From Nitrosopumilaceae archaeon (GTDB lineage Archaea; Thermoproteota; Nitrososphaeria; Nitrososphaerales; Nitrosopumilaceae), in NCBI GenBank assembly GCA_028279545.1, contig JANQNN010000026.1, positions 1 to 38,928 of the forward strand: 38,928 nt of DNA. The letters run 5' to 3'. Positions 27,999 to 31,513 of this stretch are shown here, piece by piece (position 1 is the stretch's first letter; each line of letters opens with the position of its first letter). The position numbers were made by a program, and so were the translations under genes. The notes under the pieces are model-generated. The model did not search any database. It saw only the letters and a program-made list of their open reading frames with translations, and was not told where the DNA came from.

Positions 27999-28718
27999 AT
28001 GAATTTAATTCTTGGAGGAATAATTGCGACCTCCACGATTATTTTTCTTGGTGTTTTACTTGTTAGTCCTGTTTTCTTAATTGCTGAAAAACCTACCCCT
28101 GTAATGTTATCTTTTAGCCTATACGACCAATCAAACCTAGAGATTTGGTGCAAAGAATTATCAGAATGGGCATCTTCTAAAAATATTAAAGGTTCTATCT
28201 TTCTTTCGGGAGAAGTAGCTGAAAAATATCCGTCTTGTATAACTTTATTTCCAAAAAGTTTTGATGTTGGAAGTCAAACCTATAGCTATGTCCAGCTGAA
28301 CCAAATCAATGATTACTCTGTTCAGCTTGAAGAAGTACAAAAAGGGAGAGAATCAGTTAACAAAGTTGGAAATTTAGATTCAAAACTTTTCAAAGCTCCT
28401 TATGGAGAAACGGATGATAATATCTATTCAATCCTAAACAGGAATGAAATATTAGCAGACTTTTCCTATCAAAATCAATATAACAAATATCATAATAATC
28501 AATTTCTCAAATTTGATCTTGTAACATATGACTCTCATGATGTTTCAAATAAGATTAAAGATGATGTAGAATCAAGCGAATTACCGATCCAGATTGAATT
28601 TAATTCCTTTCAGTCGATTACTGAAATTAAAAAAATTGTAAATGAGATTCAATCTTGGGATATAGAATTTGAAAGTGCCTCTGATGTATCAAACCTAGAA
28701 TTAACCCGGAGAATTTAG
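27999..28718 (+). CDS. Degenerate polysaccharide deacetylase-like membrane protein
   Basis: 239 residues. One N-terminal membrane segment (about 5-29) anchors an outer domain that follows the NodB order. SFSLYD (38-43) stands where TFDDG is expected, SQTYSY (92-97) where the two metal-binding His (HxxxH) are expected, and FKAPYG (131-136) matches the RxPYG motif. The Asp and both His of the metal site are thus missing, so it is probably not an active deacetylase but may bind glycan. Its stop is two bases from the GT2 start, so the two are co-expressed. Confidence 0.6.
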   Translation: MNLILGGIIATSTIIFLGVLLVSPVFLIAEKPTPVMLSFSLYDQSNLEIWCKELSEWASSKNIKGSIFLSGEVAEKYPSCITLFPKSFDVGSQTYSYVQLNQINDYSVQLEEVQKGRESVNKVGNLDSKLFKAPYGETDDNIYSILNRNEILADFSYQNQYNKYHNNQFLKFDLVTYDSHDVSNKIKDDVESSELPIQIEFNSFQSITEIKKIVNEIQSWDIEFESASDVSNLELTRRI

Positions 28719-28720
28719 TC

Positions 28721-30124
28721 ATGTCTACAAATGATCTTCTTTTATCCACACAACAGAATCCCCAAAGAATTTCAAAAACTAATAGGATTTTGGTACCAAA
28801 GTGGGGTTGGGTTTTACGAGGTTTTTTCTTAGCTATAATTATTAGTATTATTGCATTTGTTATTACTCAAGCATGGAATATTGGAGATCCGTTTGCTTTG
28901 TATTCTACAATAGTTCCAATTCATTCAGTTATTGTTCTTTTTTGTGGTTGGTTTATTTACAAAAATCCTGCCAGAGGCGAAGCGGGCAATGAATTAGTAT
29001 CTGTGATAGTTCCAGTATACAACCAAGCATCTATGATTGAACTTGTAATTGAGTCAATTTTTTCATCAAGTTATAAAAATATAGAAGTAATAGCTGTAAA
29101 TGATGGCAGCACAGATGGTACAAAAGAGATACTTGATAAAATAAAAAGCAAATATAAAAAACTAAAAGTTATTCATAAAAAAAATAATGGGAAAAGAAAA
29201 GCTATTGGCAGTGGTTTTTCAGCCTCAAAAGGAAAAATTCTAACGTTTATTGATTCAGATAGTCTAATTGGTTCAAAATCAATTGAAGAATTCATGAAGG
29301 CGTTTAATTCTGATAAAAAAATTGGTGGCGTGGTGGCAAATGCAAAGGTTTTGAATAATAGAAATCTGTTATCAAAACTTCAAGATGTTTGGTATGATGG
29401 ACAATTTAATATTCATAAAACATGCGAAAGTGTTTTTGGACTAGTTATTTGCTGTTCTGGCTGTATGTCAGCATATAGGCGTTCAGCATTAGATGGATTT
29501 ATTCAAAATTGGGTGGAAGCAGATGTTGTTATTGGAGATGATAGAGAATTAACATCTTTTGTAACAGCAAAACCTTGGAGTAAATTTGACTTACTATCTG
29601 CATTTTCCAAAACCAAATTACATGCCCAAAAATATGATGATGCTGAGGATCGTGTTTTAACTGGTCAGACTTTAATTGAATGGAAAACTGTCTACGTTTC
29701 CTCTGCAGTAGTCTATACCGATGTTCCTGAAAGCTTTAAGGGATTTTTCAAACAACAAATAAGATGGAAAAAAGGTTACATACGTTCACAGTTTTTTGTT
29801 AGTTCTTTCTTTTGGGCAAAACCTCCTATTATGGCATTTATTTTCTACCTAGAGTTTATGGCATCTTTGACTTTACCACTTATTTTAGTAATAATTCTAA
29901 TCTATCTTCCATTAATTACGGGTGAATTGGTGTTTGCTCTTTATTTCCTAGCAGCTCAAGTTTTGGTAGGTTTTATCGAAGGAATAGATACAAAAATTAG
30001 AAATCCAAAGAATACCAATTGGCGACTAAAACCATTAATGCCAATGCTTTCGAATTTCATTATTTCTTGGGCCATATTTCCTGCAGTTTTTACTCTAAGA
30101 AAAAATGAATGGGGAACCAGATAA
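28721..30124 (+). CDS. Processive family 2 glycosyltransferase (hyaluronan/cellulose synthase-like)
   Basis: 467 residues. Two N-terminal membrane helices (about 31-50 and 62-80) precede a GT-A domain with VSVIVPVYNQ (93-102), VNDGSTDGT (127-135), DSD (178-180), GDDRE (272-276) and QQIRW (345-349). The last is the QxxRW motif of processive synthases. Three or more helices follow (about 365-460). It should build a polysaccharide from UDP-sugars and may thread it across the membrane. It is directly downstream of the deacetylase-like gene; the UDP-sulfoquinovose synthase-like gene follows after 189 bases. Confidence 0.92.
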   Translation: MSTNDLLLSTQQNPQRISKTNRILVPKWGWVLRGFFLAIIISIIAFVITQAWNIGDPFALYSTIVPIHSVIVLFCGWFIYKNPARGEAGNELVSVIVPVYNQASMIELVIESIFSSSYKNIEVIAVNDGSTDGTKEILDKIKSKYKKLKVIHKKNNGKRKAIGSGFSASKGKILTFIDSDSLIGSKSIEEFMKAFNSDKKIGGVVANAKVLNNRNLLSKLQDVWYDGQFNIHKTCESVFGLVICCSGCMSAYRRSALDGFIQNWVEADVVIGDDRELTSFVTAKPWSKFDLLSAFSKTKLHAQKYDDAEDRVLTGQTLIEWKTVYVSSAVVYTDVPESFKGFFKQQIRWKKGYIRSQFFVSSFFWAKPPIMAFIFYLEFMASLTLPLILVIILIYLPLITGELVFALYFLAAQVLVGFIEGIDTKIRNPKNTNWRLKPLMPMLSNFIISWAIFPAVFTLRKNEWGTR

Positions 30125-30160
30125 ACAAAAGACCTGCATTAATTTTATTAAAAAGAATCA

Positions 30161-30195
30161 AACGTTTGTTCTGAGCCTAACAAACATTGTTTTTT
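30161..30195 (+). terminator. Hairpin plus T-run after the glycosyltransferase gene
   Basis: AACGTTTGTT (30161-30170) pairs with AACAAACATT (30179-30188) at nine of ten positions around the loop CTGAGCCT, and TTTTTT follows at 30190-30195. This resembles an intrinsic terminator 36 bases after the GT2 stop. Confidence 0.45.
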
Positions 30196-30230
30196 AAATT
30201 AATCAGACAACAATTGTTTAAATGAAAATT

Positions 30231-30305
30231 GGGGGGGATACAAGACCAAAAACGGACAATTTTTTTTCTGTCCTACCTTTTTTTTATAAATTATTTTTTG
30301 AGGAG
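30231..30305 (+). promoter_or_regulatory. Leader region of the UDP-sulfoquinovose synthase-like gene
   Basis: Seven G bases in a row (30231-30237) stand out in this AT-rich DNA. GGACA (30254-30258) and TGTCC (30269-30273) can form a short hairpin. TTTATAAATTA near 30283-30293 is a strong TATA box, about 26 bases before the TTG start. AGGAG at 30301-30305 is a good ribosome-binding site eight bases before TTG 30314. The TATA box and ribosome-binding site cannot both serve the same short transcript, so a second, longer mRNA from upstream is possible. Confidence 0.45.
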
Positions 30306-30313
30306 AAAATCAT

Positions 30314-31513
30314 TTGAATATTCTAATCTTAGGAATAGATGGGTATATTGGTTGGGCATTAGCTCAAAAACAACTTTATCTAGGCAACAAGGTATTTGGA
30401 ATTGATAATTTTTCCAGACGTGAAACTGTAAAAGAAATGGGTTCAGATTCTGCAATTCCAATTGAGACCATGAATAAACGAATATCAAAAATTAAAGAGG
30501 TATATGGAAATAGGATTGAATTTTTTGAAGGTGATTTAACATATTCTACCTTTGCAAATGATATTGTAAAAAAATCGTGTCCAGATGCCATTGTTCATTT
30601 GGCAGAACAACCTTCAGCTCCTTATAGTATGATTGATCAAAAACATTGTATCTATACCCATCAAAATAACGTGATTGGAAATCTCAACATAATTTATGCA
30701 ATGAAAAATTTTTCTCCTAACTCTCATTTAATTAAATTAGGAACCATGGGAGAGTATGGATACGATCCTGGATTCGTAATTCCTGAAGGATTTTTTGAAA
30801 TTGAATATCTTGGGAGGAAAGCAACAGTTCCCTATCCAAAAATGGCAGGAAGTTGGTATCATTGGACCAAGGTACACGATAGCAATAACATAATGTTTGC
30901 CTGCAAAACATGGGGACTAAAATCCACTGATATTATGCAGGGAATTGTTTATGGAACACGACTAAAAGATATTCCATCGTACATTTACCAGCCAACAAGA
31001 TTTGATTTTGATGAGGCATTTGGAACGGTTCTAAATCGATTTTGTTCAGAAGCCGTAATTGGACATGACCTTACAGTTCATGGTGCAGGTGGCCAAACAA
31101 GGGGTTTTTTGGCTTTAGAGGATTCGATTCAATGTATTTCTCTATTAATTGAAAAACCTCCAGAAAATGAAAACTATAGAGTAGTTAATCAGTTTGATGA
31201 GCAGTATTCTGTAAAAGATTTAGCAAATAAAGTAAAAAGCATTGGAGACAAAAAAGGATTGGATGTAACCATAGCAAATACAGAAAATCCAAGAAAAGAA
31301 AAAGAATCTCATTACTACAAAGCAGATCATAAAAAATTGAGAGATCTTGGATTCAAAGCAACTAGAACAATAGAGGAAGAAATTGAATATGTCTTAGAAG
31401 ATCTTCATCCTCATAAAGATAGAATTCTAAAAAATAAACAAGCTATAATTAAAAAAATAAAATGGAATTCACAAGTTTCCTCTTTAATTAGTTTGAACCC
31501 ATCTACTCCTTAA
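30314..31513 (+). CDS. UDP-sulfoquinovose synthase-like epimerase (SQD1/Agl3 family)
   Basis: 399 residues. A Rossmann NAD-binding loop GIDGYIG (7-13) opens an extended SDR. SQD1 hallmarks are very clear: EQPSAPYSMID (98-108), the THQNNVIG block (115-122), LGTMGEYG (142-149), YPKMAGSWYHWTKVHDS (174-190) and MQGIVYGTR. The catalytic Thr144, Tyr182 and Lys186 are present. SQD1 makes UDP-sulfoquinovose from UDP-glucose and sulfite; in Sulfolobus Agl3 supplies it for N-glycans. A role in a sulfonated surface glycan is therefore likely. The TTG start has an AGGAG ribosome-binding site. Confidence 0.9.
   Translation: MNILILGIDGYIGWALAQKQLYLGNKVFGIDNFSRRETVKEMGSDSAIPIETMNKRISKIKEVYGNRIEFFEGDLTYSTFANDIVKKSCPDAIVHLAEQPSAPYSMIDQKHCIYTHQNNVIGNLNIIYAMKNFSPNSHLIKLGTMGEYGYDPGFVIPEGFFEIEYLGRKATVPYPKMAGSWYHWTKVHDSNNIMFACKTWGLKSTDIMQGIVYGTRLKDIPSYIYQPTRFDFDEAFGTVLNRFCSEAVIGHDLTVHGAGGQTRGFLALEDSIQCISLLIEKPPENENYRVVNQFDEQYSVKDLANKVKSIGDKKGLDVTIANTENPRKEKESHYYKADHKKLRDLGFKATRTIEEEIEYVLEDLHPHKDRILKNKQAIIKKIKWNSQVSSLISLNPSTP

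Follow-up and report, generated by a model that had tools for sequence, protein, structure and literature searches.

Three consecutive genes on the plus strand of a 38,928-nucleotide stretch of the Nitrosopumilaceae archaeon contig JANQNN010000026.1 (assembly GCA_028279545.1; the whole stretch is here called the window) encode a membrane-anchored NodB-fold pseudo-deacetylase, a processive family 2 glycosyltransferase (GT2) resembling hyaluronan synthases (HAS), and a homologue of the UDP-sulfoquinovose synthase SQD1, as read directly from the open reading frames (ORFs). Their most probable reading, at slightly better than one chance in two, is a variant of a synthase-dependent acidic-polysaccharide cassette in which the C6-carboxylated sugar donor has been swapped for a C6-sulfonated one in two lineages. 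UDP-glucuronate and UDP-sulfoquinovose both derive from UDP-glucose, and both carry an anion at C6. In the usual form of the cassette, a nucleotide-sugar dehydrogenase would supply a uronic acid donor, which would have been exchanged for the sulfonated one in the window and in one Nitrososphaera lineage: from UDP-glucose and sulfite, the SQD1 homologue would produce a donor sulfonated at C6, UDP-sulfoquinovose being the likeliest; the HAS-like GT2 would take this donor, as its sole substrate or together with another UDP-sugar, and would extrude the chain via the membrane channel that it forms itself; and the NodB-fold protein, tethered on the outside and incapable of binding the catalytic metal, would hold or guide the emerging chain or stabilise the synthase (the donor, the polymer and this last role are what we infer). 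The stronger proposition, that, following an exchange of carboxylate for sulfonate in the conserved cassette, an archaeal HAS-like enzyme builds a C6-sulfonated polysaccharide from sulfoquinovose units, with dead deacetylases as near-constant partners, is put forward tentatively, as possible rather than probable. To our knowledge, no sulfoquinovose-polymerising HAS-like synthase has been known before, and no paper on a sulfoquinovose polymer synthase in archaea was found in the openly searchable literature.

Dehydrogenase and SQD1 in the synthase cassette

Relatives of nodB were found in 14 of 250 Nitrosopumilaceae-type (f1) and 7 of 70 Nitrososphaeraceae-type (f3) genomes, a survey that should be complete for the collection used, and in one f5 genome (22 Nitrososphaeria genomes); the synthase patterns extend the cassette to loci of Bathyarchaeota and Chloroflexi (one genome). 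The GT2 gene directly follows nodB in nearly all related loci, and the gene directly 5' of nodB belongs to the UDPG_MGDP_dh family (282–348 aa; 419 aa and full length in Chloroflexi), mostly across a short gap; the exceptions among the inspected pair loci are the window, L094 and a few rearranged or contig-end loci. The dehydrogenase is part of the cassette in 19 of the 22 genomes; G402 has an orphan nodB, and the source genome of the window (G000; 1.92 Mb, 99% complete) and the Nitrososphaera genome G108 have SQD1 instead. The window has the pseudo-deacetylase gene directly before the GT2 gene but lacks the upstream short dehydrogenase, and a genome-wide search for the latter came up empty for G000 and gave no more than a remote full-length homologue (24% identity) in G108. 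The neighbourhood survey that the initial annotation had proposed bears out a near-constant nodB–GT2 pairing, but not SQD1 as the usual partner, which replaces the dehydrogenase in 2 of the 22 genomes.

The slot of the dehydrogenase is taken by SQD1 in G108, with 33 bp separating SQD1 from nodB downstream, and in the window SQD1 follows the synthase gene. With 58% identity between them, the GT2s of these two loci make up a 100/100 clade that spans the two families (internal branch 0.55–0.57) and survives the removal of two long rows; a tree forcing the window GT2 to group with the G290 and G207b synthases of its own genus was rejected (p-AU 1e-50); in these trees, synthase type tracks the donor enzyme. 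Since the SQD1 genes group with those of their own families (the window gene in a starred 97/95 set of nine f1 rows, the G108 gene in a 91/91 set of five) while the GT2s unite across families, the SQD1–synthase coupling would have been either kept over a long divergence or made twice. The functional tie between the window-type synthase and SQD1 proposed earlier is upheld by the G108 linkage and by the GT2 clade that follows SQD1. Residues unique to the SQD1-linked GT2 pair (A163G, N357Q, F383L and A/S228Q, among others) were set aside, as they come from a single clade and are indistinguishable from ordinary descent.

SQD1 may also be an independent neighbour acting in N-glycan synthesis, as Agl3 does in Sulfolobus, or in that of a glycolipid, while the NodB–GT2 pair makes a polymer from UDP-GlcNAc, UDP-Glc or similar donors. 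This arrangement, which we hold to be unlikely, would agree with the 189-bp gap that precedes SQD1 and its possible own promoter, with the position of SQD1 amid ordinary glycan genes in G061, G007 and G224, and with the sulfoquinovose of Sulfolobus N-glycans (PMC4388408, PMC9549778); it agrees poorly with the second tight linkage in G108, with the absence of the dehydrogenase from exactly the two SQD1-linked genomes, with a GT2 clade that follows SQD1 linkage across families, and with the chance of SQD1 standing beside the pair in both genomes, below 1e-6 in a rough hand estimate that takes one gene per kb. Among the window ORFs, no N-glycan genes were found near the cassette, and an N-glycan cluster was rejected as its context for that reason; a sulfolipid operon of the sqdBDC type was rejected as well, there being no sqdD- or sqdC-type partners beside the window SQD1. 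Between the sulfonated extruded polysaccharide and the N-glycan that had been offered as products, the polysaccharide is favoured, and the N-glycan is less likely given the HAS-, cellulose- and chitin-synthase-like model and these surroundings.

In seven other SQD1 loci (five from the Nitrosotalea genus and two f3), SQD1 adjoins a large GT2 gene of another type or is separated from it by a single gene; in these archaea, SQD1 is therefore repeatedly tied to GT2 synthases. The GT2s of these loci (L106–L109 and L112 in the Nitrosotalea genus, L110 and L113) have 624–660 aa, and the two that were scored are PgaC-like at about 135–140 bits; a large secreted protein of the NEW3/CARDB type is encoded between SQD1 and the GT2 in most of the loci. 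A further linkage is preserved as a relic in the Nitrososphaera genome G143 (L209:4900-5950), where a decayed 5' portion of SQD1 runs into the decayed 3' portion of a GT2 gene and the sequence contains stops; at L210:6858-7537 (G048), the decayed 3' end of an SQD1 gene precedes a fragment of a GT2 gene in the same orientation.

The processive synthase and its metal-less partner

The GT2 (28721..30124, plus strand; 467 aa) has two N-terminal transmembrane (TM) helices, DSD178-180, GDDRE, QQIRW345-349 and C-terminal TM helices, so that the DxD, (G)DDR and QxxRW motifs and channel helices of processive GT2s of the HAS, chitin and cellulose synthase type are all present, as the initial annotation had stated for the motifs. 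Positions D178, D180, D274, R275, Q345, R348 and W349 belong to the many invariant ones of the family alignment. The protein scores 113 bits with PF00535 and 57 bits with Chitin_synth_2, and its 152.1 bits with PgaC_IcaA (TIGR03937) fall far under the equivalog cut-off of 422.3, outside the poly-N-acetylglucosamine (PNAG) synthases. In the AlphaFold2 (AF2) model (predicted local distance difference test, pLDDT, 81.8), the 13 top PDB matches are all hyaluronan synthases, one of them the Chlorella virus enzyme with inserted UDP-GlcA (TM-score 0.70), and cellulose and chitin synthases rank after them. The cassette product is thus predicted from the model to be an extruded polymer. Hyaluronan synthases use an acidic donor. 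The likeness to class I HAS (GT2; Chlorella virus, Xenopus) lies in these structural matches and in DSD, GDDR and QxxRW, and the nucleotide-sugar dehydrogenase of the related cassettes could likewise supply an acidic donor; the archaeal enzymes differ by an identity of only about 20%, by the NodB-fold partner and, in the window, by SQD1 in place of the dehydrogenase. No relatives of the synthase were found in the viral contigs searched.

The NodB-fold protein (27999..28718, plus strand; 239 aa, with a helix at residues 3-22) is encoded 2 bp before the GT2, in the same direction as the other two genes, as had been claimed. It scores 34.7 bits with PF01522 (cut-off 23.1), and an AF2 model built on 16 relatives (pLDDT 87.8, predicted TM-score 0.81), with a helix at the N-terminus, finds as its best PDB matches in Foldseek proteins of the carbohydrate esterase family 4 (CE4)/NodB fold without exception (E 5e-10), the pseudoenzyme BA3943 among them; the structure prediction proposed as a check on this protein thus returns the NodB fold. 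The Asp-His-His metal triad of active CE4 deacetylases is missing: the ligand sites are occupied by S40-L41 in MT1 (LSFSLYD) and by Q93 and Y97 in MT2 (GSQTYSY), in agreement with the earlier claim of a membrane-anchored NodB-like protein with the Asp and both His replaced, and the loss is family-wide. Across 28 relatives from archaea and Chloroflexi, His occurs at neither MT2 position (0/28), residue 93 being mostly Q, E or S and residue 97 Y, N or K, and the DD pair of MT1 is absent throughout. Window residue D43, with which phmmer aligns the metal Asp of Bc1960, was rejected as a ligand, since the position is N, D, E, H, G or Q in relatives and the strand alignment sets the DD pair at S40-L41. 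The RxPYG-like motif does remain, as KAPYG in the window (MT3) and as (K/R)APYG in most relatives, and FKAPYG, GSQTY and ADFSY are strongly conserved in the family, with TDxNIYS conserved as well. Because the metal ligands are gone and the other motifs are conserved across the family, the metal site is lost from the family as a whole, which is under selection for another role.

These conserved motifs may alternatively reflect an enzyme whose rearranged site still serves to trim or alter the polymer; PuuE is an example of a NodB-fold enzyme that works without a metal (PMC10967932; 3cl6 appeared in the fold search). We consider this very improbable, as none of the 28 sequences has His at either MT2 position or a DD pair, and as many cassettes encode, farther downstream, a second PF01522 (PF01522/DUF2334) protein with RLDD and NHGWxHxD intact. 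Being dead as a deacetylase and nearly always beside the synthase, the NodB-fold protein is probably an extracytoplasmic accessory of the latter. The CE4 pseudoenzymes BA3943, Ba0150 and EcCDA share the NodB fold lacking catalytic or metal residues (PMC10967932), whereas in this cassette the loss spans a whole family tied to a synthase. An extracytoplasmic NodB-fold protein paired with a processive GT2 is also found in PgaBC and IcaAB (PNAG synthase and NodB deacetylase), but the archaeal partner lacks the metal site, the cassette includes a dehydrogenase or SQD1, and the GT2 stays under the PgaC cut-off.

The SQD1 homologue and the weight of the evidence

The SQD1 homologue (30314..31513, plus strand; 399 aa) starts with TTG, upstream of which stands GAGGAG. 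It resembles the SQD1/Agl3 synthases in its full-length match (362 bits with Arabidopsis SQD1, 1qrr), in the catalytic residues Thr144, Tyr182 and Lys186, all present in a residue check, and in passing the equivalog NF041015 (577.3 bits, cut-off 575); of the other residues essential in Agl3, His95 and Met145 are retained along with Tyr182 and Lys186. A gene of the PAPS-reductase family is present, which is consistent with a supply of sulfite. The SQD1 homologue differs from the SQD1/Agl3 synthases in having Pro for an Arg and in its context, a polysaccharide synthase rather than sqdDC or N-glycan genes. The description of this protein as near-textbook SQD1 holds for the three catalytic residues and is overstated as a whole, an essential Arg being replaced by Pro100.

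Several points weigh against the proposed donor exchange. The Arg of EQRSAP is Pro in 14 of 14 sequences of the window clade (EQPSAP or EMPSAP), and the pass over the NF041015 cut-off, by just 2 bits, is a weak point; for both reasons sulfoquinovose is a likely but unproven product of the window enzyme, and Pro100 means that the product could differ from UDP-sulfoquinovose. In the usual cassette, the uronate donor too is deduced, from a short dehydrogenase that has the NAD and central domains, keeps its catalytic Cys (within GGHCLPKD) as well as its Lys, and misses the C-terminal UDP-binding domain; the Chloroflexi enzyme is full-length (TIGR03026, 362 bits, cut-off 190). There are just two intact SQD1-linked loci, and the GT2 relic of G143 falls outside the SQD1-linked clade. 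The nodB genes of the window and G108 are not grouped in the nodB tree, and the idea that the NodB-fold part tracks the donor enzyme was rejected on that basis. The GT2 is poorly modelled near GDDRE and beyond it, at residues 270-295. Finally, co-transcription of SQD1 with nodB and GT2 is not assured given the gap between them (30125..30313), which holds a T run (about 30258-30269) and a TATA-like stretch, TTTTTTATAA, some 25-34 bp upstream of the start codon TTG; these two elements suggest a separate SQD1 transcript.

The replaced Arg also bears on whether the enzyme of this clade makes another C6-modified UDP-sugar, a 5,6-ene or the adduct of another nucleophile, that is then used by the synthase. 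The Arg is kept in Agl3, in the plant, rhizobial, roseobacter, Pseudonocardia and deep-branching archaeal enzymes, and in most bacterial ones, the R101A variant of Agl3 is inactive (PMC4388408), and SQD1 and Agl3 yield UDP-Glc-5,6-ene when sulfite is lacking (PMC4388408, PMC8987622). We nevertheless judge such a product doubtful, since His95, Met145, Tyr182 and Lys186 are kept, the NF041015 cut-off is passed, and Agl3 T144A stayed active, which makes the logic of single residues imperfect. The sulfonated donor is the product we prefer, as a likely one.

Other SQD1-like genes were observed in different surroundings. The SQD1-like proteins of L206 and L207 (Haladaptatus and Natrinema) carry AQPSAPYSQI and TTTTGVYG, and two additional short-chain dehydrogenase/reductase genes come after the genes that encode them; these proteins are probably not UDP-sulfoquinovose synthases. 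On a Pseudonocardia autotrophica plasmid (L204), an SQD1-like gene (40% identity) lies beside a divergent GT2 gene, with cysteine-synthase-like and major facilitator superfamily genes nearby, and in the Marinovum locus used for comparison (L208) an sqdB-like gene is followed by glycogenin-like and UDP-glucose 4-epimerase genes.

Significance, flanking genes and related loci

Few microbes are as abundant as the ammonia-oxidising archaea, and the enzymes for their extracellular polysaccharides are barely known. With the cassette, a family of pseudo-deacetylases linked to a synthase can be delimited in archaea and as far as Chloroflexi, and for relatives of Nitrososphaera and Nitrosotalea it supplies a set of genes through which the making of an acidic polymer can be tested; the exchange may amount to an experiment of nature, in which a processive synthase switched its donor from carboxylate to sulfonate at C6, and points to a source of organosulfonate in ammonia oxidisers. 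No description of the cassette, the pseudo-deacetylase family or the dehydrogenase–SQD1 exchange was found in the openly searchable literature (subscription papers lay outside this scope), in line with the earlier remark that the genes had not been described as a unit. Extracellular polysaccharide genes of ammonia-oxidising archaea are mentioned in general terms only (PMC7554672, PMC10064710, PMC11559005), and UDP-sulfoquinovose synthase has been noted as a sulfolipid gene in Thaumarchaeota that do not oxidise ammonia (PMC10640624).

The genes flanking the three in the window are unrelated to them (thymidylate kinase, response regulator, HSP20 and a luciferase-like protein). Among the related loci, dehydrogenases of about 285 aa lacking the UDP-binding C-terminus, with the Cys kept and PER changed to PHR, are found at L086:7050-7922, L090:708-1562 and 34 others, and G131 and G135 (L093, L095 and L100) carry two or three dehydrogenase–(NodB)–GT2 copies each, some in tandem. 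In the Nitrosotalea loci L087, L088, L120, L122 and L141, the GT2 is followed by an MBOAT gene (DltB/AlgI-like) and by an SGNH/DltD-like gene fused to long pentapeptide repeats, together with a NodB/DUF2334 protein with intact ligands, an arrangement reminiscent of an alginate- or teichoate-like acetylation tail. These MBOAT and SGNH/DltD-like genes recall the alginate and DltBD acetylation systems, from which the cassettes differ in synthase and donor; the acetylation genes are absent from the window.

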